Assembly (NCBI GenBank): GCA_030698885.1
Contig: JAUYLN010000038.1
Coordinates: 1-64,000, forward strand
Origin: a bacterium
GTDB taxonomy: Bacteria; Patescibacteriota; Minisyncoccia; 2-02-FULL-40-12; IGHO2-01-FULL-4-A
Length of the DNA: 64,000 bases
Reading direction: 5' to 3'
A program made the translations under genes and the position numbers. Every line of letters starts with the position of its first letter. Position 1 is the stretch's first letter. Below, piece by piece: positions 5,234-39,361 of the stretch. Under the pieces are notes generated by a model. It did no database searches. It worked only from the letters and a program-made list of their open reading frames with translations, and was not told where the DNA came from.

Positions 5234-5307
5234 ACTGTCAAAATAACATACTAGCACTTTAACATAAGGCCTGGATTTAAATATAATTTATTCAAATCAA
5301 AAGCCCA

Positions 5308-5349
5308 ATGTTTAAATGTTAAAATGTTTAAATGTTTAAATGGATTTGA
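5308..5349. repeat. Word-repeat tract (AATGTTTAA words)
   Basis: Four imperfect tandem copies of a TTTAAATG-like word. They run up to the stop codon of rmuC (5350). The outer parts are complementary (AATCAAA near 5295 and TTTGATT near 5345). The same word family occurs at 12304-12335 and 19346-19429. Confidence 0.7.
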
Positions 5350-6438
5350 TTAATTTACCACTTCTTCACTATCTTGTCCAACACTTAGCTTTTTCTCCTC
5401 CTCTCCTCCGGCTTCAAGCACGCTTTGAGCGCGGCCGGTCATGAGTGACAGCCGTTTTTCAGAATTACCATAGGAGCTTTGGGCATCCGATAAATGTTTG
5501 CCAAGTCTCTTGAAGTCTTCTTCCAATTTTTGAGCGTCTTTAATAACCCAGTCAATTTTTTTCATTATGGCCTTGGTCTGACTATTCATCTGAACGTCTT
5601 TCAGCCAATGTCTAATCGCCGAAACAGAAAGCATAAAAGTATTCGGCGAAACAAGAATTACTTTTTTTGACCTTGCATAGGCGCCAATATCAACATCCTT
5701 AATATTATTTACTATTTCGTAATAAACTGTTTCCGCCGGAATATACATAAGGGCCAAATCAGCCGTGCCCTCAGAAGGCCTGATGTATTTTGAAGAAATA
5801 TCGTCAATCTTCTTCTTAACATCCGAAAAAAATGTCTTTTTAAAAACTTCCCTGTTTATATCGTTGTCGGCGTTGACCATTTTTTCAAAATTTTCCCAGG
5901 GGGCCTTGGCATCAATAGACAGCAAAAGCTCATTCGGCAATTTTAATACAGCATCTACCGCTTCCCCGTTCTTAAAATAATACTGCATCTGATAGCCGTC
6001 CCTTGGAAAATACTGTCCGAGAGCGGACTCAAGAGATGCCTCGCCCCAAATACCGCGAAGCTTCGGCGCCTTAAAAATATCCTGAAAAGACACGACGCCT
6101 TTTACTGATTCATGCACCTGTTTCAACCCTTCCGACATTTGCGTCAACCCTGTCGTAAAAGCCTGAACCTGCCTGTGAACATTTTGCGAAGAACGCTCCA
6201 CTGATTCCCGACTGTCTTTCAACTGTTCGCCAACCATTTTTACGGTATCTCTTAATGCCTGGTCGGTTGACTGCTTGGTCCTGTCCAAATAAGCCGCCAT
6301 ATCGGACAATCTCTGATTTAAGATATCAAAATTTTTATCCGTCTTGCCATCATCCTTTGGTTTTTGAGCACGCAAAATCAAAAAGGCAACTATTGCCCCT
6401 CCTGCAACCCCGATTATTATTGGTAGAATTAGGTTCAT
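5350..6438 (-). CDS. rmuC: RmuC-family DNA recombination protein
   Basis: A 362-aa protein with an N-terminal membrane anchor (residues 2-24), a coiled-coil region (about 40-115) and the RmuC nuclease-like core: FKAPKLRGIWGEASLESAL, LLSIDAKAPWENFEKM, LALMYIPAETVYYEIV and VILVSPNTFMLSV. RmuC limits inversions between short inverted repeats in E. coli. That is notable here because the window is full of such repeats, but a link is only a guess. The ATG at 6436-6438 has no Shine-Dalgarno; a word-repeat tract begins 2 nt upstream of it. Confidence 0.93.
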   Translation of the reverse strand: MNLILPIIIGVAGGAIVAFLILRAQKPKDDGKTDKNFDILNQRLSDMAAYLDRTKQSTDQALRDTVKMVGEQLKDSRESVERSSQNVHRQVQAFTTGLTQMSEGLKQVHESVKGVVSFQDIFKAPKLRGIWGEASLESALGQYFPRDGYQMQYYFKNGEAVDAVLKLPNELLLSIDAKAPWENFEKMVNADNDINREVFKKTFFSDVKKKIDDISSKYIRPSEGTADLALMYIPAETVYYEIVNNIKDVDIGAYARSKKVILVSPNTFMLSVSAIRHWLKDVQMNSQTKAIMKKIDWVIKDAQKLEEDFKRLGKHLSDAQSSYGNSEKRLSLMTGRAQSVLEAGGEEEKKLSVGQDSEEVVN

Positions 6439-6440
6439 AA

Positions 6441-6480
6441 AAAGTAGTAAGTAGTAAGTATTAAGCGGTAAGTATAATAC
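6441..6480. repeat. Left inverted arm (AAGTAGTAAGTATTAAG words)
   Basis: A word-repeat tract just upstream of the rmuC start. Its reverse complement recurs at about 6752-6788, on the other side of the small gene at 6543-6713 (about 20 of 24 positions match over the best part). The same word family flanks the gene at 9704-9979. Confidence 0.75.
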
Positions 6481-6482
6481 AT

Positions 6483-6510
6483 TGATTTATTAAGAATAGT
6501 TTGATTTAAT
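6483..6510 (+). promoter_or_regulatory. Candidate promoter of the small membrane protein gene
   Basis: TTGATT (6483-6488), 16 nt, TTTAAT (6505-6510). This leaves a short leader ahead of the Shine-Dalgarno at 6532-6538. Motif match only. Confidence 0.4.
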
Positions 6511-6542
6511 AGTTCTAGTTTATTTTACAAACGGAGAGGCTC

Positions 6543-6713
6543 GTGGAAAACCAGTACTCTAATCTTTGGTTTATGTTGGCAGTAGCTAATGGCTTTATGG
6601 CTAAATATAAAAATGATAGTAGCGGAGGATATGGTTTTGGCGGTTTTGCCTGGTTTCTTATAAGTCTTATCTTCGGTCCTTTGGCAACATTATATATTAT
6701 ACTATTTAAATAA
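6543..6713 (+). CDS. Small membrane protein (56 aa)
   Basis: A short gene starting with GTG at 6543 with GGAGAGG three nt upstream. The product begins MENQYSNLWFMLAVANGFMA, has a Gly/Tyr-rich hinge (SSGGYGFGGFAW) and ends in a hydrophobic helix (FLISLIFGPLATLYIILFK). A strong terminator follows 10 bp after the stop. The gene runs opposite to both neighbours and has its own promoter-like sequence. It sits exactly between inverted word-repeat arms (6441-6480 and 6752-6788). Function unknown; the architecture suggests a single-gene cassette. Confidence 0.7.
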   Translation: MENQYSNLWFMLAVANGFMAKYKNDSSGGYGFGGFAWFLISLIFGPLATLYIILFK

Positions 6714-6723
6714 CCATCCGATT

Positions 6724-6747
6724 GCCTCGTTCTGCGAGGCTTTTTTT
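6724..6747 (+). terminator. Rho-independent terminator
   Basis: GCCTCG-TTCTG-CGAGGC followed by seven T's, 10 bp after the stop of the 56-aa gene. Confidence 0.88.
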
Positions 6748-6751
6748 ATTA

Positions 6752-6788
6752 TAGCTTAATACTTAATACTAACTACTTAATACTTATT
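6752..6788. repeat. Right inverted arm (TTAATACTTAATACT words)
   Basis: The reverse complement reads AAGTAGTTAGTATTAAG and matches the arm at 6441-6480. It ends where the stop codon of the next gene (6789) begins. Confidence 0.75.
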
Positions 6789-7400
6789 TTAAACGTATCT
6801 ATCCGCCACCTTATTGGCCGCATAAGACTCGGGTTTTATACGGGCCTTAAACCCATTACCGGTTATCATACCGACTATCTCCTGAATCATATCCTTGGTC
6901 GGTCCGTTCTGGCCGATGTCCAAGTGGATTTCAAAATCGTAAAAATGACCCTTCAATTTATCTCGGAGCTCGGCCGTCAAACGATGCGCCACGTCCAAAG
7001 AAAAATATGCCTCCTTGAGCATCCTATCATGCCTGTCAAAAGTTTTGACGGCAGGCATTCTTTTCCAAAAATATCTGCCATGTCTGCCCACACGATGAAT
7101 AGTGATAACGCTCACGAAATTGGCAGTGCCCATCCCCTCTTTCTTATGAGAATAACCATTTCCATTTGTTGAAGCACCACCCGCACTGAGCTTAGTCGAA
7201 GTGTTAACTAATCCAACGAATTCTGAATCAGTACCGACAACAACCGAATATCTGGCCAACGGCTCTTCAGCAATAAAGCCGACGATATCCGCTATGACAT
7301 TCAAAAAATCCCTCTTGCCTTTTGAGGGACTGTTGAAATATTCTAAATTATTTTGTGCGGCGCTATTTTCTACAACGCTTAATTTTTCAGACTCCATCAT
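6789..7400 (-). CDS. YkuK-type RNase H-fold protein (DUF458 family)
   Basis: A 203-aa protein that matches the YkuK/DUF458 family, a predicted RNase H-like fold whose activity is not established. Visible hallmarks are SVVVGTDSEF (residues about 52-61), an HRVGRHGRYFWKRMP stretch, the acidic motif IHLDIGQNGPTKDMIQEIVG, and the C-terminal IKPESYAANKVADRYV that ends the family. The start is one of two adjacent Met codons; no Shine-Dalgarno is visible. An 85-bp imperfect hairpin lies just upstream. Confidence 0.85.
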   Translation of the reverse strand: MMESEKLSVVENSAAQNNLEYFNSPSKGKRDFLNVIADIVGFIAEEPLARYSVVVGTDSEFVGLVNTSTKLSAGGASTNGNGYSHKKEGMGTANFVSVITIHRVGRHGRYFWKRMPAVKTFDRHDRMLKEAYFSLDVAHRLTAELRDKLKGHFYDFEIHLDIGQNGPTKDMIQEIVGMITGNGFKARIKPESYAANKVADRYV

Positions 7401-7429
7401 AAGTAATCTAGCAAAAATTTAGCCAAATG

Positions 7430-7503
7430 AAAACCCCGAAGTAGAAATTTGGCTTGTTTGTGTACACAAACATAAATTATGTGCCAAATTACACTTCAGG
7501 GCT
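7430..7503. repeat. Long imperfect hairpin upstream of the YkuK-type gene
   Basis: Nested complementary blocks: CCCCGAAGT/ACTTCAGGG outside, AAATTTGGC/GCCAAATT in the middle, and a TGTTTGTG/TACACAAACA core. It fills most of the gap between the stop at 7512 and the start at 7400. On the minus strand it ends in GGGGTTTT, so it could act as a weak terminator, a leader structure or an inserted palindrome. Confidence 0.6.
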
Positions 7504-7511
7504 AGGACCGC

Positions 7512-7784
7512 TCAACGGTCATCAATCAATCGTCCGGCATTGCATTCTCGGTTAATATATTTATCACAATGGCTATTAAATATCCTGGCAGACCTTATTC
7601 CACTGCTTCTTCCTTTATACAAAGAAAGGCCCACCAAACTAGCTAGTTTTTCATCTTCCTCATGACATCTTTCGTCGCCATTTTTTAGGTAAATCTCAGC
7701 CCATCTTATTATAGATTGGCGTAGCTTTTTTATTTCTTTCCCTCTTTCGCCTAAAGACATTTCTTTAATCGGCTTCAGCTTCAT
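7512..7784 (-). CDS. Hypothetical protein (90 aa)
   Basis: Not recognised. The start is taken at ATG 7782-7784 (MKLKPIKEMSLGERGKEIKK). The ORF extends 33 codons further upstream, but that part runs through an intrinsic terminator (7819-7845), so the upstream start is unlikely. AAGAGG lies 10 nt before this ATG. The product is basic and helical in its first half (KKLRQSIIRWAEIYLK), with CHEEDEKLASLVGL in the middle and two further Cys residues. A small hairpin (GACCG/CGGTC, 7505-7519) overlaps the stop. Confidence 0.5.
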   Translation of the reverse strand: MKLKPIKEMSLGERGKEIKKLRQSIIRWAEIYLKNGDERCHEEDEKLASLVGLSLYKGRSSGIRSARIFNSHCDKYINRECNAGRLIDDR

Positions 7785-7818
7785 TGTTAAATAACCTCTT
7801 GCCTTGTTTCTACATCTA

Positions 7819-7845
7819 TAAAAACAAAAAATGCCCGCAAGGGCA
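7819..7845 (-). terminator. Rho-independent terminator upstream of the 90-aa gene
   Basis: Minus strand TGCCC-TTGC-GGGCA followed by TTTTTTGTTTTTA. It ends about 35 nt before the ATG at 7784, so it either closes the tRNA-Glu transcript or attenuates the gene. Confidence 0.75.
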
Positions 7846-8086
7846 AGTCTGTTTTTCTCATCTTCAAAACTCAATAAAACCAATATACGACTAAATTTCT
7901 AACGGCCTTTCTGATAATAATACCCAATGGGCTTAAATATGTCTGTTTGCCTGAAATTAAACACTAAATACTGGCTTTATTGAGTTTTGACACCTAAATT
8001 ACTCTTCCTATATATACTATCATATACACCCCAAAAAGTCAAATAATAAGTCTCTTCCCCACCCGTTATCGCCTCGTTTTACTCGG

Positions 8087-8161
8087 CGCTCCCGCCGGGA
8101 TTTGAACCCGGGTTACATGGATGAGAACCATGCGTCCTAGACCAGGCTAGACGACAGGAGC
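8087..8161 (-). tRNA. tRNA-Glu (anticodon CUC)
   Basis: The minus strand folds as a tRNA: acceptor GCTCCTG/CGGGAGC, D-arm around GTCTAGCCTGGTCTAGGAC, anticodon stem CATGG/CCATG with loop TTCTCAT (anticodon CTC), and T-arm CCGGGTTCAAATCCCGG. The 3' CCA is not encoded. Confidence 0.95.
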
Positions 8162-8276
8162 ACTCCTGCGCTTTGTATTGTAACAAAGCTTCGGAAGAGC
8201 GAGCCTCTTTAATGAAAAGACGCTTATCCTTCCGAAGCTCAATTAATATTGAGCGAAGGAGGAGACGACAGGAGCA
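8162..8276. repeat. Hairpin-rich insert with a repeat of the tRNA 5' end
   Basis: The first bases of the tRNA (plus-strand AGACGACAGGAGCA) recur at about 8263-8276. Between the two copies lie CTTTGT/ACAAAG, AAGCTTCGGAAG/CTTCCGAAGCTC and CTCAAT/ATTGAG inverted repeats. There is no ORF. Confidence 0.7.
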
Positions 8277-8287
8277 ATTAAATTATA

Positions 8288-9592
8288 TTAAACCGAAATT
8301 TTAATTTTGTCTACAATAATATCCATTTGCATAGAATGCGACCCCTTAACCAGCACCACATCCCCTTCCTGTAAAAGTTCTAGAACTTTGGGCCCGGCTT
8401 CTTCTGAAGTGCTGAAACTTAAAATATTTTCTTTAGGCATTTGGTTTCCGGCAGAATCGGCAATAAATTTAGATGCAGAACCTATCGTTACCAAAATATC
8501 ACACCTCTCACCCGCCAAATTTCCGATGGCTCTATGCGCCTGTTCAGTGTATTGGCCAAGTTCTTTCATATCCCCAAGAACTGCTATTTTTCTACCGGCA
8601 TAATCCGGTCTTATTTTTTTCAATGTTTCGCCAAGCGACCTTAATGTTTCGAGCCCGGCATGAACGGCAATCGGAGAAGCATTGTATGTATCATCTACAA
8701 CTAGCGAGTTTTTAACGCCTTCCAGTAAAGTCATCCTGTGTTTCGGCACCGGCATCTTTTCAAGCGCCATTGAAGCTTCTACCAAGTTAACTCCGAAATA
8801 CATTCCCACAGAAATAGCAGCCAAGGCACTATAAATCTGATGAGTGCCTACAGCCCCTCCCAAACGAAATGGGATAAATGTTTTGCCCTGATTGATTTTA
8901 AATGACAACCCGCCGATACTATCACCGCTCTCATCTATAAAATAAGAAATACCCGACGCCCAAAGGTCCGCTCCTTTATTCAATCCAAATGTCATAATGT
9001 CCGCCCCTGTTTTACCGCGCATATCAAGTACGGTCTGGTCATCATAATTTAGAACCGCAAGCCCATCGTGCAAAGGAAGAGACTCTATAAGCCGTGATTT
9101 TTCTTTGGCAACATCTTCGGGTCCTGCATAAAATTCCACATGCACCGGAACATCACCCACCGTGGTTACCACGCCTACTTTGGGATGGACTATATCAACT
9201 AGATAATCAATGTCGCCCGGCTTAGCGGCGGCAAGCTCAAGCACAAGCATCTCCGGATAGCTCGTATCAAATAGCCCGAATGTCCGCCATTTGGCTTTTA
9301 TAATTTCCCGCCAAAAACGAAAAAGTCTCGGCCAGTTTTTTATCCGAAGGTTGGCCGTGGACAATTTTGGGTCAATACCAAGCACAGTCAAAGGCACGCC
9401 AAGTTCATTATTAAAATTCTCTTCGTTCTTCCTGACGTTAAACTTCCGCGACAAAACGGCATGTATAGCTTCCTTAGCCATGGTCTTGCCGGCTGAACCG
9501 GTCACGCCAATAACCACCGGCTTATAACGCCGGATAGTTCGCTTAGCCAGAACCTTTAAAACAAATTGTAAGATTTTTTGAGAATTGGACAC
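8288..9592 (-). CDS. murF: UDP-N-acetylmuramoyl-tripeptide--D-Ala-D-Ala ligase (MurF)
   Basis: Adds D-Ala-D-Ala to the peptidoglycan precursor in the cytoplasm. Mur-ligase hallmarks are present: P-loop GVTGSAGKT (residues 29-37), ENFNNELGVPLTVLG, the central VVDDTYNASPIAV with the substrate-binding Asn, AVLGDMKELG, and VLVKGSHSMQMD near the C-terminus. The protein (434 aa) lacks most of the N-terminal UDP-binding domain of classical MurF: the P-loop comes only about 28 residues in, which suggests a trimmed form. The start is GTG at 9590-9592, beside a word-repeat tract. Confidence 0.93.
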   Translation of the reverse strand: MSNSQKILQFVLKVLAKRTIRRYKPVVIGVTGSAGKTMAKEAIHAVLSRKFNVRKNEENFNNELGVPLTVLGIDPKLSTANLRIKNWPRLFRFWREIIKAKWRTFGLFDTSYPEMLVLELAAAKPGDIDYLVDIVHPKVGVVTTVGDVPVHVEFYAGPEDVAKEKSRLIESLPLHDGLAVLNYDDQTVLDMRGKTGADIMTFGLNKGADLWASGISYFIDESGDSIGGLSFKINQGKTFIPFRLGGAVGTHQIYSALAAISVGMYFGVNLVEASMALEKMPVPKHRMTLLEGVKNSLVVDDTYNASPIAVHAGLETLRSLGETLKKIRPDYAGRKIAVLGDMKELGQYTEQAHRAIGNLAGERCDILVTIGSASKFIADSAGNQMPKENILSFSTSEEAGPKVLELLQEGDVVLVKGSHSMQMDIIVDKIKISV

Positions 9593-9596
9593 AGGA

Positions 9597-9634
9597 ATTA
9601 AGTATTAAGTATAGAGTAGTAAGTATTGAGCATA
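9597..9634. repeat. Left inverted arm of a second small-gene unit
   Basis: ATTAAGTATTAAGTATAGAG-type words next to the murF start. The reverse complement recurs at 10026-10059; GTAGTAAGTATTRAGCA is shared with one mismatch. Confidence 0.75.
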
Positions 9635-9639
9635 ATTCA

Positions 9640-9668
9640 TTGACAGGATAATGTTATTTTATTATAAG
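9640..9668 (+). promoter_or_regulatory. Sigma-70 promoter of the 91-aa gene
   Basis: TTGACA (9640-9645), exactly 17 nt, TATAAG (9663-9668). Near-consensus. It gives a leader of about 30 nt. Confidence 0.75.
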
Positions 9669-9703
9669 TTATTCTAGAACATTGATTTTATTGAAGGATT
9701 CAT

Positions 9704-9979
9704 ATGGCTAAACTTACACAAAAATTATCTGATGAGGTTTTTGCTGGCAGAGTATTAGAATGCATAAAGAAAAAATTCAAATCTGTATTAGATATACCCT
9801 TAGATTTTATTACCCTTTCTAATACATTAGTTGAGGAGAATCTTGATTTTGAACACACTGAGCTAGAAGACGCATTAAATTTTCTAGCTTCAAAAAATCA
9901 GAACAAACTTGCAGTAAGCCGTATTAGATTACCGATTACCGACATAACTAAAATATCCTTCAGACTAACAGTTCTATAA
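9704..9979 (+). CDS. Hypothetical protein (91 aa) in a repeat-bounded unit
   Basis: Not recognised. The ATG at 9704 has AAGGA five nt upstream and a near-consensus promoter. The product starts MAKLTQKLSDEVFAGRVLEC and is mostly helical with an acidic middle (VEENLDFEHTELEDALNFL) and a basic, beta-like end. It could be a small winged-helix-like protein, but no motif proves it. A strong terminator follows. The whole unit lies between inverted word-repeat arms and runs opposite to murF and ftsI. Confidence 0.65.
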   Translation: MAKLTQKLSDEVFAGRVLECIKKKFKSVLDIPLDFITLSNTLVEENLDFEHTELEDALNFLASKNQNKLAVSRIRLPITDITKISFRLTVL

Positions 9980-9982
9980 CCA

Positions 9983-10025
9983 CCCGCCCTTGGCCTGCCT
10001 GCGCAGACAGGCGGGCTTTTTCTTT
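9983..10025 (+). terminator. Rho-independent terminator
   Basis: GCCTG-C-CTGC/GCAG-A-CAGGC stem-loop followed by GGGCTTTTTCTTTT, directly after the 91-aa gene. Confidence 0.85.
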
Positions 10026-10059
10026 TGCTTAATACTTACTACTTACCCCTTAATACTAT
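10026..10059. repeat. Right inverted arm of the second small-gene unit
   Basis: TTAATACTTACTACTTACC words, the complement of the tract at 9597-9634. The stop codon of ftsI (10056-10058) is formed inside this arm. Confidence 0.75.
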
Positions 10060-11807
10060 CTGCGCGTAGGCGGTATCCCCATATAATTTATCAGAAATCT
10101 GGTTATGTCAGCAAAAGTAGGCGTTAAAGTATTTGAGGCAAATCTTTCACCTTTCGGTCTGTCCATCTTAATCAATATTACAAATCTGGGCTTGTACGAG
10201 GGCGCGAAACCGATAAAATTATGAATAAACTCATCGGAATATCCACCGCCTGGATCGGATATCTGGGCCGTACCGGTCTTTCCGGCAACATCATAGCCCG
10301 GAATACGCGCTTTATCAAATCCATTGTCAACTACGTCAGTTAGCATTGATTTTAAGGTAAGGGCCGTCCTGTCTGATATGGGCTGGCCTAAAACTTCCGG
10401 CTCAACCTTGATGCTTGAACCGTCTTCTCTGATTATTTCTTTCGCCACATAGGGCTTTAACAGTTTACCTCCATTAGCAATAGATGAATAGGCATTTACA
10501 AGCTGAATGGGTGTCACAGCAATGCCCTGGCCAAAAGAAGCAGTCATAAAATTTATTTTTCTTCCGCTGAAAAGGTTTGAAATATTTCCGTTAATTTCGC
10601 CGGGCAAGTCTATTCCGCTTTTTTGCCCAAAACCGAAGGCAACAACATAATTTAAAAAGTCATCATTGCCCAGCTTGCTTTGTGCAAAAATAGAACCGGT
10701 ATTCAATGATTTTTCCAAAACCTGACGCATGGTCTGGATGCCATAAGTCCTTTCATCAAAATTCTTTATAACATATCCCGCCTCAACAATCGCGCCGGTA
10801 TCCTCATAAGTAGTATCCGGCTTGATAACGCCTTTATCCAGGGCGCCGGCCATAGTTATAGGCTTAAAGGAAGAACCGGGCTCAAATAATTTTTGGGTTG
10901 CCGGATTAATAAAACTGGCCAATCCAAACTCATCATAATGGTTAGGGTCAAAACTCGGAGATGATGCCAACCCAAGTATTGCGCCCGTATTTGGATCCTC
11001 CACTATTATCAGCCCGGATGGAGACTCCCACTTCAGCAACAATGCATCCAGCTTGGATTCAATGAAAGATTGAATGTTTTTGTCTATAGTCAAAACGACA
11101 TCACTGCTCTCGTGGTCCTTACCGGCATCAGCAGTATTAGAATTTTGCGCGTCTTTGTCGGCTAAAGATTTAAAAAAATCTGATATCTTTGAATAAGTCT
11201 CGTTGCCAAACCAATTCTGTGTTGCATGTTCTCCGCTTAATACATAATCATAAAATGCCTCAACACCGTATTGACCGACTCTACCGAACCCCTCAAAACC
11301 GACAAAACCAAGAGTAGATGCGGCTGAATATTTTTCCGGATAGATACGGTCAATTCCATTTGCGATGCTAATGCCTTTGATATTTAGTTTTCTTATTTTA
11401 TCAGCCTCAACCTCGCTTACTCTATCCGCCAAGACCACATATTTTTCTTTGTTATCGGAAAGTTTAATTAATATTTCTTCTTTTGAAACCCCCAGCACAT
11501 CTGCTATTTTGAGGGATGCCTCATCTGCCGAATCCAGCTGAGAATTATTTGAATATACATAAATGAATTTTTGATTTGTAGCAGCTAAATGCCGGTCGCC
11601 CAAAACATCAGAAAAATATACATTGCCCCTTTCTGAAAGCTGCGATGAGGGATTCTCATATTGAGCTTTTGCTGATTTAACAAAATCAGAATGCTTAACG
11701 AAAGTTAAATAAAAAAGACGGTACGTTATACCGCCGGCCATTGCAAAAATAATAACTATAAAAACGTTTATTCTCCAATTATTTGAGCCTGTGCTTTTCA
11801 GTTTCAT
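10056..11807 (-). CDS. ftsI: Peptidoglycan D,D-transpeptidase FtsI (PBP3-like)
   Basis: A septal cell-wall cross-linking enzyme of about 583 aa. One N-terminal membrane anchor (INVFIVIIFAMAGGITY) is followed by the PBP dimerisation domain and the transpeptidase domain with all three motifs: SxxK in PGSSFKPITMAG (about residue 312), SxN in KSLNTGS (about 370) and KTG in GKTGTAQ (about 510). The start is taken at ATG 11805-11807 (MKLKSTGSNN); the longer ORF would begin inside a perfect hairpin at 11861-11915. It follows ftsL in the mraZ-rsmH-ftsL-ftsI order. Confidence 0.95.
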   Translation of the reverse strand: MKLKSTGSNNWRINVFIVIIFAMAGGITYRLFYLTFVKHSDFVKSAKAQYENPSSQLSERGNVYFSDVLGDRHLAATNQKFIYVYSNNSQLDSADEASLKIADVLGVSKEEILIKLSDNKEKYVVLADRVSEVEADKIRKLNIKGISIANGIDRIYPEKYSAASTLGFVGFEGFGRVGQYGVEAFYDYVLSGEHATQNWFGNETYSKISDFFKSLADKDAQNSNTADAGKDHESSDVVLTIDKNIQSFIESKLDALLLKWESPSGLIIVEDPNTGAILGLASSPSFDPNHYDEFGLASFINPATQKLFEPGSSFKPITMAGALDKGVIKPDTTYEDTGAIVEAGYVIKNFDERTYGIQTMRQVLEKSLNTGSIFAQSKLGNDDFLNYVVAFGFGQKSGIDLPGEINGNISNLFSGRKINFMTASFGQGIAVTPIQLVNAYSSIANGGKLLKPYVAKEIIREDGSSIKVEPEVLGQPISDRTALTLKSMLTDVVDNGFDKARIPGYDVAGKTGTAQISDPGGGYSDEFIHNFIGFAPSYKPRFVILIKMDRPKGERFASNTLTPTFADITRFLINYMGIPPTRR

Positions 11808-12303: not shown

Positions 12304-12335
12304 TTTGTTAGAATGTTTATATGTTTATATGCTTA
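12304..12335. repeat. Word-repeat tract (ATGTTTATATG words)
   Basis: Imperfect tandem copies of ATGTTTATATGCTTAAATG-like words. They fill the gap between the ftsL start and the rsmH stop. Same family as 5308-5349 and 19346-19429. Confidence 0.65.
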
Positions 12336-13238
12336 AATGAGTTCTGCTACTCTTAATTTTGCGCTTCTGGAACGCGGATTATTTATTATTTCTTCACGGC
12401 CCGGCACAATAGGTTTTTTGGTAAGTATTTCCCATTTTCCGTCTTTTTTACCGTCTCTCAGGAAATTTTTAACTATCCTGTCTTCAAGTGAGTGAAAAGA
12501 TATGACTGCCAGCCTGCCTCCTTTTTTTAATACTTGTTCTGACTGCTTAAGTGCTGACTTTAAATTTTCAAGTTCATTATTTGTCTCAACCCTTAACGCC
12601 TGAAATATTTTGGTAGCAAAGTGTATTCTACGATGCTGATACCAACCGGGAACCGTATTTCTTATTATTTCTACCAGTTCAAATGTGGTTTTTATCGTTT
12701 TGTTTTTTCTGGACCTTATTATCGCTTCGGCTATCGGTCCGGCAAATCTCTCTTCCCCGTATTCTTTGAATATTCTGGTTAAATCTTCCGCGCTATATTC
12801 ATTTACAATCCCCTCCGCCGTCTTGTTTGTGTTTTGTAAATTGTGATTTGGGATTTCTAAATATGAACTAATGTTCATATTTAGAGGTTCATCTTTCTGA
12901 AAACTGAAACCTTTCCCGCTTCCCTCAAAATGCCAGCTTGATATACCAAGATCAAACAATATTCCATTAGCATTATTGAAATCATTTTCTTGAGCTATTT
13001 TTTCTAAATTTATGAAATTATCGTTTATTAAAATTAAATTATCTTTTTTACTCTCTACTGCTTTTTTATAAAGCTCTTCGGTTGCCTCAATACCTAGAAT
13101 CCTTCCACCCGTTCCAACTTTCCCGGCCATTGCCAGACTATGTCCGCCAAATCCAAACGTCGCATCAATTATCTTGTCACCGGGCTTAGGGTCTAAATAT
13201 TCAAGAACTTCATTTAATAAAACGGGGGTGTGCAGCAA
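12333..13238 (-). CDS. rsmH: 16S rRNA (cytosine-1402-N4)-methyltransferase RsmH
   Basis: A SAM-dependent methyltransferase of 301 aa. Conserved blocks are HTPVLLNEVLEYL, IIDATFGFGGHS (SAM motif I), ILFDLGISSWHFE, KGFSFQKDEPLNMN, GEERFAGPIAEAI, FQALRVETN and AVISFHSLEDRIVK. The start is TTG at 13236-13238: an in-frame UGA lies two codons upstream, and the family begins at this point; AGGA is 9 nt before it. After PLNMN there are about 10 extra residues compared with E. coli and B. subtilis RsmH (SSYLEIPNHNLQNTN). They are encoded by a palindrome plus an ACAAATCACAA-type repeat, so they look like an in-frame insertion. Confidence 0.95.
   Translation of the reverse strand: MLHTPVLLNEVLEYLDPKPGDKIIDATFGFGGHSLAMAGKVGTGGRILGIEATEELYKKAVESKKDNLILINDNFINLEKIAQENDFNNANGILFDLGISSWHFEGSGKGFSFQKDEPLNMNISSYLEIPNHNLQNTNKTAEGIVNEYSAEDLTRIFKEYGEERFAGPIAEAIIRSRKNKTIKTTFELVEIIRNTVPGWYQHRRIHFATKIFQALRVETNNELENLKSALKQSEQVLKKGGRLAVISFHSLEDRIVKNFLRDGKKDGKWEILTKKPIVPGREEIINNPRSRSAKLRVAELI
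12821..12884. repeat. Repeat inserted in frame within rsmH
   Basis: On the minus strand a 12-bp palindrome (CTAAATATGAAC-ATTA-GTTCATATTTAG, 12857-12884) is followed by AAATCACAATTTACAAAACA, which resembles the repeat inside the O-antigen ligase gene at 20344-20404. Confidence 0.6.
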
Positions 13239-13240
13239 CT

Positions 13241-13346
13241 TTCAAATTCCTAATTGACCTAATTGCTCTAATTGACCTAATGAAATCCCAGTTACAAATT
13301 TAGTTGTTTAGAATAATTAGGTTAATTAGAATAATTAGAATAATTT
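13241..13346. repeat. Palindromic word-repeat tract (CCTAATTGA words)
   Basis: Three copies of CTAATTGACCTAATT-like words on the left and their complements (AATTAGGTTAATTAGAATAA) on the right, around a central AGTTACAAATTTAGTTG. It fills the whole gap from the rsmH start to the mraZ stop. Confidence 0.75.
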
Positions 13347-13781
13347 TTATACGACTCCCAGCTCTCCCAATTTCTCGGCTATTTGGTCACTATTTTTTTC
13401 AAGCTTATCTTTATAACTCTGCCAGCGCTTCTCATCCCAAATTTCCAATCTGTTGAATAGTCCTGCTACTATGGCTTTCTTATCAAGCATGGCGTAGTCT
13501 CTTAAATAATCAGGAATTAAAACTCTGCCCAACTGGTCAACCTCCACCTCAACCGCACCCGACAAAAGCAATCTTACAAATCCTCTTGTGTCTCCCTGTC
13601 CGAAAGGCAGTTTGCCTAATTTCTCCGCCAATTGCTCCCACTCCTTCATCGGAAATAAGAATAAACAATTATCAAGGCCTCTGGTCAAAACAGATTTGGC
13701 GCCAATCTCACGGCGTAATTTTGCCGGTATGGATATTCTTTTTTTGGGATCAATTGTGTGTTTATATTCACCGATTAACAA
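13347..13781 (-). CDS. mraZ: Transcriptional regulator MraZ
   Basis: A 144-aa protein with two AbrB-like MraZ/SpoVT repeats: IGEYKHTIDPKKRISIPAKL near the N-terminus and VEVEVDQLGRVLIPDYLR near residue 80. The family represses the division/cell-wall cluster from sites in its own promoter. The start is TTG at 13779-13781, giving LIGEYKHTID in the family's usual register. A long imperfect palindrome (13790-13915) begins 8 bp upstream of this start and takes up the place where a Shine-Dalgarno would be expected. Confidence 0.95.
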   Translation of the reverse strand: MLIGEYKHTIDPKKRISIPAKLRREIGAKSVLTRGLDNCLFLFPMKEWEQLAEKLGKLPFGQGDTRGFVRLLLSGAVEVEVDQLGRVLIPDYLRDYAMLDKKAIVAGLFNRLEIWDEKRWQSYKDKLEKNSDQIAEKLGELGVV

Positions 13782-13789
13782 AGATAAAC

Positions 13790-13915
13790 TCTAAATCCTA
13801 AGTCCTAAATCCTAAATAAATCCCAATGATCCAAATATCAAATTCAAAACGTTTGAAATTTAAAACTTGGAATTTTGATATTGTTTAGGGTTTAGAGCTT
13901 AGAACTTAGGATTTG
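13790..13915. repeat. 125-bp imperfect palindrome (CTAAATCCTAA words), copy 1
   Basis: Left arm of CTAAATCCTAAGTCCTAAAT-type words and right arm of the complementary words, meeting around AAAACGTTTG. The segment 13872-13897 matches the reverse complement of 16891-16916 at 25 of 26 positions, so this is a dispersed family. Confidence 0.85.
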
Positions 13916-17884: not shown

Positions 17885-17922
17885 GGTTGCCGTAAAGCTA
17901 TAGAGCCATAAGCTATAAAGCC
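17885..17922. repeat. Left inverted arm of the S23-gene unit
   Basis: CCGTAAAGCTATAGAGCC-type words. CCATAAGCTATAAAG on this arm matches the reverse complement of the right arm (CCATAAAGCTGTAAAG). The stop codon of the four-helix-bundle gene lies inside it. Confidence 0.65.
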
Positions 17923-18260
17923 TTATTTAAAGATTCCAGCATAGCTCCAATTTCTCTGGCCATATTGTTTAGAGTTATGCCGATTTCAAGGTCTATATAT
18001 TTTAGTTCGTAACTTAACAAAAAATAATATTTCAATTCCTCTAAGGAAGTTTCCGACATATTATGAAAATGTTTTCTATCTTTGACTGATTTTCTTTTGG
18101 TACCCTCCACTATGTTTGATGCTACAGAAATGGCAGCTCTTCTCATTTGGGGTACTAGGGCGAATTTTTCTTGCGATGGGAAGTTTATTGTTATTTTATA
18201 TACTTCTAAAACTAGCCTATGCGCTTTTTGCCAAACTTTTAATTTTTTAAATTTTTCCAA
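17913..18260 (-). CDS. S23-type four-helix bundle protein
   Basis: A 115-aa protein of the family first found in intervening sequences of bacterial 23S rRNA genes (S23, four helix bundle protein). Hallmarks are KLKVWQKAHRLVLEVYKIT, QMRRAAISVASNIVEGTKR and the AETSLEEL-like segment MSETSLEELKYYFLLSYEL. The molecular role is not established. TTG start at 18258-18260, with AAAGGAGGG about 12 nt upstream. The gene fills the space between inverted word-repeat arms at 17885-17922 and 18279-18317, between the transketolase and gapdh genes. Confidence 0.9.
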   Translation of the reverse strand: MEKFKKLKVWQKAHRLVLEVYKITINFPSQEKFALVPQMRRAAISVASNIVEGTKRKSVKDRKHFHNMSETSLEELKYYFLLSYELKYIDLEIGITLNNMAREIGAMLESLNKAL

Positions 18261-19345: not shown

Positions 19346-19429
19346 CTAAAATGCTTAAGTGTTTAAATGCTCTAATGTTTATATGATTAAATGCTTATAT
19401 GCTTAAGTGTTTAAATGTTTTAATGCTTA
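19346..19429. repeat. Word-repeat tract (ATGCTTAAGTGTTTAA words)
   Basis: About eight imperfect copies of ATG-C/T-TTA-type words between the gapdh start and the O-antigen ligase stop. The ligase stop codon is part of the last word. Confidence 0.75.
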
Positions 19430-35673: not shown

Positions 35674-35713
35674 CGATGCTAATATACGAATTTTACTAAT
35701 GATACAAATACTA
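35674..35713. repeat. Left terminal arm of the GxxExxY unit
   Basis: CGATGCTAATATACGAATTT followed by TACTAATGATACAAATACTAG. It matches the left half of 39280-39321 and, inverted, the arm at 36106-36177. Confidence 0.8.
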
Positions 35714-36115
35714 GGCGAACTTGTTTCGAGCATCAGTATCTATCCTTACTATCCTTATTGGTTTTAAATATCTATTTCTAAAATTTATCAGTAACGCTAA
35801 GCGAACATCAGCTGCTTGAATATATTTTTGTGCCTGATAATAATCTTCTTTTAATATTATCGGCTTAGCTTTTAACTCTACGATGATTTTATTATCTATG
35901 AAAAAATCCACCACATTACCGGAGCCCTCTATTGGAAACTCTCTTATATAGGCGATACCTGCTTCTTTAAACCTCTGTTCTAATAAATTTCCGTATTGCC
36001 TTTCTCTCGCATATCTTCCTAGCTCATTGTGAACATCAAAACAGATACCGGTCAGCAGATAAGATAACTCCGGATAAATCAACTTGTCATTTTTATTCGT
36101 ATTATTAGTATGCAT
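35711..36115 (-). CDS. GxxExxY protein
   Basis: About 134 aa, of the family named GxxExxY (a PD-(D/E)xK-like fold of unknown role, common in CPR and Bacteroidetes). Key segments are [20 protein letters not shown], the [16 protein letters not shown] variant of the GxxExxY motif, [15 protein letters not shown] (nuclease-like D...ExK arrangement) and [17 protein letters not shown]. The start codon, either 36113-36115 or 36158-36160, lies inside the right repeat arm, and the stop lies at the edge of the left arm. The ORF and its flanking inverted arms therefore appear as one unit. Confidence 0.88.
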
Positions 36116-36177
36116 TAGTATATTGGTATCGCACTTATTATTAGTATAATTAGTATGCATTAGTATATTGGTATCGC
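36101..36177. repeat. Right terminal arm of the GxxExxY unit, tandemly repeated
   Basis: TAGTATGCATTAGTATATTG followed by GTATCGC occurs twice (36106-36132 and 36151-36177). The reverse complement GCGATACCAATATACTAATG pairs with the left arm. The arm ends 1 bp before the stop of the gene at 36179. Confidence 0.85.
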
Positions 36178-39279: not shown

Positions 39280-39361
39280 CGATACTAATATACAAATTTT
39301 ACTAATGATACTAATGAATTTAATTCGTATTATTAGTATGCATTCGTATATAGGCATCGAT
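39280..39361. mobile_element. Palindromic repeat: empty version of the GxxExxY unit
   Basis: The left half (39280-39321) matches the left arm at 35674-35713, and the right half (39322-39360) matches the right arm at 36101-36132, but no ORF lies between. The halves are themselves imperfect inverted repeats (CGATACTAATATACAAAT and CGATGCCTATATACGAAT). Confidence 0.8.

Follow-up and report, generated by a model that had tools for sequence, protein, structure and literature searches.

Cassette 1 and its host operon

Between rmuC and a YkuK-type gene of the same operon lies a small antisense gene enclosed by inverted arrays of a short word, which raises the question of what kind of unit this is and how it came to occupy the junction. 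The unit (6441-6788) is called cassette 1 and a second one (9592-10052) cassette 2; the window, i.e., the whole stretch of 64,000 nt that was analysed, is contig C11 of genome G000 (957 kb, 38 contigs), referred to as the own genome. The features of cassette 1 and its host genes are the following:

5350..6438, minus strand, host gene rmuC (PF02646), whose ATG abuts cassette 1
6441..6475, plus strand, 5' arm of cassette 1, five TAAGTAK-type heptamers, the word reading in the same direction as the cargo gene
6533..6539, plus strand, Shine-Dalgarno-like GGAGAGG, read from the sequence
6543..6713, plus strand, cargo ORF of 56 aa with a GTG start, from the ORF list
6724..6750, plus strand, intrinsic terminator-like stem (6724-6740) with a T tail, from the terminator scan
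6752..6786, minus strand, 3' arm of cassette 1, inverted copy with five heptamers
6789..7400, minus strand, host gene of the YkuK type, RNaseH_like (PF04308), whose stop abuts cassette 1

The relatives of the RmuC protein belong mostly to Candidatus Yanofskybacteria and other Parcubacteria. As rmuC starts at 6438 and the YkuK-type gene stops at 6789, the cassette fills the gap from start to stop codon, the exact fit that the initial annotation had described; its inverted word arrays lie flush with the neighbouring stop and start codons, and the 3' arm starts 2 nt past the stop codon of the YkuK-type gene. The Shine-Dalgarno sequence, the gene of 56 codons on the strand opposite to both host genes and the terminator, all claimed in that annotation, were found again (one terminator-like stem on the plus strand of the cassette against 0.2 expected). 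Its promoter-like sequence was the sole claim left unconfirmed: the scan for sigma-70-type sites, with other promoter types outside its scope, gave no site on the plus strand, and on the minus strand one site against 1.9 expected, i.e., below chance. A promoter of its own would be expected if the unit were a moron, which combines promoter, gene and terminator.

The arms, likewise read at the outset as inverted copies, pair over 30 nt (6442-6471 with 6749-6778) with 87% complementarity, or in an alternative alignment over 43 nt (6430-6472 with 6755-6797) with 79%, and TRF assigned period 7 to both, with about 4.7 and 4.6 copies. Among the inverted repeats of the entire window with segments 150-600 nt apart they score highest (23.2), followed by the pair round 9601/10023 in cassette 2 (19.6). 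Three Markov-resampled windows peaked at 14.2, 15.6 and 14.4, so that a chance origin of the arms, at 23.2 against at most 15.6, was rejected. The predicted fold of the operon strand contains a long stem that joins the two arms (-78.8 kcal/mol, z -5.1). No recombinase, transposase or reverse transcriptase is encoded within cassette 1, and the search for known RNA families in 6300-10200 returned only a tRNA and no rRNA match.

The cargo is an orphan, predicted gene as judged from its sequence, and the single hydrophobic stretch seen by eye makes a membrane protein probable. The gene is present in a single copy in the own genome and was found in none of the seven other genomes of the family and none of 378 other genomes of the phylum; it is thus not syntenic between rmuC and the YkuK-type gene in the relatives, and a conserved ancestral gene was excluded on these counts. 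The identification as DUF997 was dropped because the match was sub-threshold (E 0.021), far under the curated cut-off. Searches of NCBIfam, PHROGs and PADLOC gave no match, nor did PF05635 or TIGR02436, the models of the S23 genes that are located elsewhere in this genome.

The insertion site in sibling genomes

At the ykuK-rmuC junction, cassette 1 is a genuine insert. The empty site, for which a comparison with relatives had been proposed, exists in G003, where the ykuK stop and the rmuC start abut as TAAATG (contig JACOZZ010000010.1 is identical there), and the cassette was therefore inserted between the stop of the YkuK-type gene and the start of rmuC. The comparison supports the inserted-cassette reading of the initial annotation, whose observation is itself partly confirmed. 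Relatives of YkuK occur in 9 of the 45 genomes of the order, and the content of the junction varies among them: a 53-bp hairpin built of 8-mer words in G002, inverted word arms of about 100 bp in G005, a PF05635 gene between arms of the TAATTTTT word in G004 and a plain short spacer in G006. G001 has another ORF after ykuK, with rmuC about 1 kb further, and the outgroups G010 and G008 carry different spacers. No clear target-site duplication is visible at the TAA or ATG of the junction with cassette 1.

The PBP-murF junction, which carries cassette 2, varies similarly, with spacers of 19 bp in G006, 67 bp in G002 and 211 bp in G007, an inverted hairpin of the AATTTTTA type with no gene in G004, a hairpin of another word in G005 and other content in G001; the contig of G003 ends at this junction. 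Cassette 2 is composed of the following parts:

9592..9626, plus strand, 5' arm of cassette 2, same word as in cassette 1
9704..9979, plus strand, cargo ORF of 91 aa, no family match
10025..10052, minus strand, 3' arm of cassette 2, at the stop of the PBP gene

Dispersal of the arm word

The arm word also occurs at dozens of other sites of the own genome, some of them as inverted pairs. Allowing at most 3 mismatches, the pattern TAAGTANTAAGTANTAAGTA matched the genome 76+51 times and its reversal 19+17 times, and a related pattern had 109 matches in G000 (30 for its reversed control), the most among the 45 genomes of the order, the next having 39. In the window and 20 further stretches of the own genome, 45 arrays of the TAAGTAK word were delimited, a number that is not a density since the stretches were picked round pattern hits. 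Within 700 nt, 11 of the 45 arrays have a convergent and 6 a divergent partner, and 22 start between -25 and +15 nt from a stop codon of the same sense.

Gene-less TAAGTA arrays were also observed in frame within priA (L064:903-2891), fmt (L064:4172-5113) and uvrC (L054:1107-2513). They are translated in both senses, giving peptides of the SSKYQVLS- and LNTKYLI-type. In an alignment of three PriA sequences, one array-encoded stretch corresponds to a 19-residue insertion relative to G001 and the other lies without a clear gap.

S23 genes between word arms

S23 (PF05635) is the 23S rRNA intervening-sequence protein, or IVP. One convergent pair of arrays in the own genome (C14:61774-62207) encloses a PF05635 gene (C14:61807-62187, locus L084), and because PF05635 was found both here and at the G004 junction, the genes of this family were surveyed. 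The window itself contains one:

17913..18260, minus strand, S23/IVP gene (PF05635, TIGR02436), with its own arms, whose word differs from that of cassette 1

A PF05635 gene is present in 35 of the 45 order genomes and in 129 of 188 genomes of a class sample. The S23 set comprised 129 loci, namely the best match per genome and 60 further loci picked high in the match lists, rather than every match; 127 gave an ORF (L138 and L140 gave none), of which 121 had full flanks and six were cut. Loci with an inverted-arm score of at least 14 were termed armed, and 90 of the 121 S23 loci fell into this class, compared with 47 of 968 mismatched pairings, in which the left flank of one locus was joined to the right flank of another; the remaining 31 had no arms at this threshold. 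Of the loci numbered L141 and higher, which were added once the first analysis had been made, 63 of 83 were armed. When the window was taken together with 17 stretches from genomes of the family, arms were found at 12 of 16 S23 genes and at 17 of 313 other ORFs; these background ORFs were chosen by length, not curated, and two of the 17 armed ones are cassettes 1 and 2. Among solved structures, the chains nearest to S23 by sequence are 2gsc and, with a weak match, 2rld. In G007 a weakly S23-like gene, which lies beside a reverse transcriptase and by this position is probably a DGR Avd, has no arms.

The best arm period over the 90 armed loci was 7 in 63, 8 in 16, 9 in 10 and 5 in one. Arrays of period 7 hold a median of about 6 words, those of periods 8-9 hold 4-5. 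An exact match of the word number to the S23 pentamer was dropped, five words being common and not fixed. Both neighbours are co-directional with S23 at 72 of the 78 placeable armed loci (the other 12 of the 90 were left out, a neighbour or an arm having no assignable position). Cassettes 1 and 2 are both antisense to their host operon, an orientation found in only 2 of the 78 S23 cassettes. At the armed S23 loci the median distance is 0 nt between the upstream stop and the start of the arm, and 6 nt between the arm end and the next start, values that are somewhat flattering because the arrays hold stop codons and ORF starts were set at the first possible codon.

Gain and loss of S23 cassettes, rRNA genes and plasmids

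In genus g3, an S23 cassette of G005 splits the stop and start of a gene pair that overlaps as TGATG in G004, and two more sites have a cassette in one genome and unrelated filler in the other. G005 also carries an armed S23 gene within its LSU (23S) rRNA gene (L102:6527-6880), and G003 has at the same rRNA helix a plain short helix with S23 absent; the rRNA-borne cassette is an IVS of the classical kind, flanked by word arms.

Matches to the L084 protein were obtained in 25 plasmid records, most of them cyanobacterial. All 12 of these loci that were examined have inverted arrays of the heptamer type, with scores of 15.8-31.8, and at L248, L250 and L251 armed S23 genes lie in CRISPR-Cas operons of cyanobacterial plasmids, between cas10/cmr3 and cas6/cas4. 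In a Nostoc plasmid, 50 kb outside the S23 locus contain four period-7 arrays, compared with 0-1 for each other period tested. The phage collection gave no match to L084-type S23, and a phage origin was dropped on this ground. A PF00078 reverse transcriptase was found in 6 of 8 family genomes and in neither G000 nor G001, so that a reverse transcriptase acting in trans today was likewise dropped.

The arm word follows the S23 subfamily

Across genomes, comparison of the sequences indicates that the word follows the S23 subfamily. The correlation between protein similarity and arm 5-mer similarity was 0.273 (Mantel rho), the maximum of 500 permutations being 0.142, and the mean arm cosine was 0.343 at protein similarity of at least 0.6 and about 0.05 in distant pairs. 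With one arm set reverse-complemented the mean cosine fell to 0.051, so the link holds in the same sense only. Restriction to pairs with unrelated outer flanks gave cosines of 0.167, 0.289 and 0.580 with rising similarity class (n 275, 141 and 21). The word is tied most closely to the protein columns of residues 65 and 60 in L084 numbering (z 6.5 and 4.6, with overall identity corrected by a quadratic fit and no tree), both of which adjoin the motif N-I-A-E-G. Of the proteins with R at residue 60, 16 of 16 have TAG[CG]T in their arms, compared with 3 of 33 of those with F.

The arms of cassette 1 are nearest to those of L084 of the own genome (cosine 0.88), then L166 and L200, and in antisense the best cosine with any S23 arms was 0.18. 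Its word thus matches that of the L084 subfamily in the same sense relative to the gene. By this likeness the arms are assigned to a subfamily of S23/IVP elements, a wider identity that was beyond the reach of the initial annotation.

Dispersal of words in their owner genomes, determined for 14 words, was strong for L085 and L098 and about twofold for L092 and L095; most of the remaining words showed little or none, and L083 none.

Origin of cassette 1

The most plausible explanation, and one that we consider likely, is that cassette 1 belongs to a mobile family of S23 word-armed elements, as a non-autonomous member with swapped cargo; neither the own genome nor the 378 phylum genomes hold a second copy of the 56-aa cargo that would attest movement as a unit. 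In its favour are the empty and differently filled sites at two junctions of sibling genomes, the frequency of arms at S23 genes, also on plasmids and in one LSU rRNA gene, the presence or absence of S23 cassettes within genus g3, the link between word and subfamily, the likeness of the arms to those of L084 and the predicted stem. Against it count the lack of an S23 gene and of an rRNA location, the lack of a clear target-site duplication, the 31 S23 loci below the arm threshold, a dispersal that is clear for only some words and the antisense orientation of cassettes 1 and 2. Full members of the family would be S23 genes between inverted arrays of short words, with the arms as the element ends, and cassette 1 would carry the TAAGTAK word of the L084 subfamily with the 56-aa cargo in place of S23. 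In the operon transcript the arms are predicted to fold into a long stem, which RNase III may cut, by analogy with rRNA IVSs, so that the insert would cost the operon little. The word arrays, either as DNA or as an RNA stem, are probably recognised by the S23 pentamer, which is ring-shaped; its word specificity may be set partly by the variable residues after N-I-A-E-G, and S23 would act in trans when word-armed units are copied or moved.

It could be argued that the arms were made locally, slippage expanding a 7-mer and fold-back synthesis inverting it, in which case the cargo would be a chance capture, with no mobility and no part for S23. The words do change between junctions and between genomes, and slippage has been proposed for bacterial heptamer repeats, a view reported in the passages of PMC4679880 drawn on here. 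However, one word recurs in 45 arrays of the window and the 20 selected stretches, the word follows the S23 subfamily despite unrelated flanks, and S23 genes are strongly over-represented between arms, which makes a purely local origin unlikely. It also seems improbable that the arms are an RNA-processing and stop-codon device of operon junctions, supplying stop codons in every frame and a stem for RNase III, with the ORF incidental. The position of 22 of the 45 own-genome arrays at same-sense stops, the terminator-like hairpins seen by eye after several arrays and the fold of the operon strand (z -5.1) would agree with such a device, but priA, fmt and uvrC have arrays in frame within their coding sequences, the sibling G003 has no array at the ykuK-rmuC junction, and the link with S23 is left unexplained. 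As a secondary function, a role at junctions may nevertheless apply.

Inverted ends, multiple copies and an empty site would be expected of a conventional MITE or transposon that has terminal inverted repeats and is mobilised in trans by a DDE or HUH transposase. The ends, however, are word arrays that differ between loci and have no fixed sequence, those of cassette 1 being degenerate word arrays and not a fixed terminal repeat; target-site duplication was not seen, and the gene found between such ends is S23, not a transposase, so that this explanation is very improbable. We retain the S23 word-armed family as the preferred origin. A more general proposal, put forward tentatively and at somewhat less than an even chance, is that the S23 four-helix-bundle proteins are word-specific factors of bacterial mobile elements which read the words of their subfamilies via the loop after N-I-A-E-G. 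The same ends would mobilise S23, foreign cargo and gene-less hairpins into operon junctions, into rRNA helices and, in frame, into protein genes, and rRNA IVSs and the heptamers of the cyanobacterial and Beggiatoaceae type would be one system.

Comparison with known repeats and insertions

According to the parts of PMC4990558 used here, rRNA IVSs are cut by RNase III and their ends pair; the IVS of Coxiella burnetii has complementary ends that form a 28-bp stem, with GACAGAT tandem heptamers just before the S23p start. The same source describes this S23p IVS as regarded as selfish and horizontally acquired, and the S23p of Xanthomonas as a toroidal homopentamer. Cassette 1 resembles S23-bearing IVSs in its stem-forming complementary ends and the tandem heptamers upstream of its ORF, but it lies between protein genes, in antisense and with a non-S23 cargo. 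Its word, unlike that of the Coxiella IVS, is common to dozens of gene-less arrays of the own genome. Cassette 1 is not itself an IVS because it has neither an S23 gene nor an rRNA location. Insertions in the rRNA genes of CPR bacteria include ORFs for 23S_rRNA_IVP, and the sections of PMC11270868 concerned deal with rRNA genes only and describe no word arms or intergenic cassettes.

The TAACTGA heptamer arrays of Beggiatoaceae and cyanobacteria, whose transfer mechanism is given as not known in the excerpts of PMC4679880, resemble the arms of cassette 1 as intergenic arrays of one heptamer with forward stops in all frames, mostly at gene boundaries. These excerpts describe direct repeats with one indirect case and no link to S23, in contrast to the inverted pairs round genes and the S23-subfamily-specific words found here. 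The passages on STRR in PMC5088731 give no repeat sequences.

In frame within conserved genes, the TAAGTA arrays of priA, fmt and uvrC are like the Rickettsia palindromic elements, which are gene-less, fixed palindromic repeats; unlike these, they are heptamer arrays linked to a protein family. The STRR repeats of cyanobacteria are tandem heptanucleotide arrays in intergenic DNA, as are the arms of cassette 1, and the host group differs.

Searches of the open-licence literature gave no title or abstract opening that joins intergenic S23 genes with word arms, and the survey suggests that S23 word-armed units are a large, overlooked family of mobile DNA. Neither the S23/IVP proteins nor the heptanucleotide repeats found between genes in several phyla have had a settled role so far; if the arrays are the ends of S23 elements, the two would merge into one question, that of whether S23 binds its own word and whether this moves DNA. 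This would also explain the gain of orphan genes between operon genes in the very small CPR genomes, at a low cost because the insert lies between stop and start and can be folded away in the transcript. From the words specific to each subfamily, and from the residues that vary next to an invariant motif, it is predicted that the specificity can be swapped.

Other word arrays

The pilus operon of the own genome (L056:13274-17950; C14:61774-66445) contains an S23 cassette, a T2SSF gene and four more genes, two of them with N-methylation motifs. Each of the four is preceded by a near-identical 35-nt array and starts with GCATGAATACAAAAA, as does the S23 gene of this operon; the 5' end of the element seems to have become the leader of these four genes.

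Arrays of 8-bp words of the AAATGTTT type are present in the window at 5304-5347, 12305-12343 and 19374-19429. They resemble the arms of the S23 gene L098 of the same genome, and arms of this type flank a SIMPL (DUF541) gene at L113:11380-12156. Two gene-less inverted word hairpins, of 9-bp and 7-bp words, lie between genes at 13248-13353 and 13784-13914. Two arrays of nonamers of the ATTAGTATC type, at 36095-36175 and 39281-39324, lie in opposite sense about 3.1 kb apart, and the ORF 35711-36160 is built in part from such nonamer repeats.
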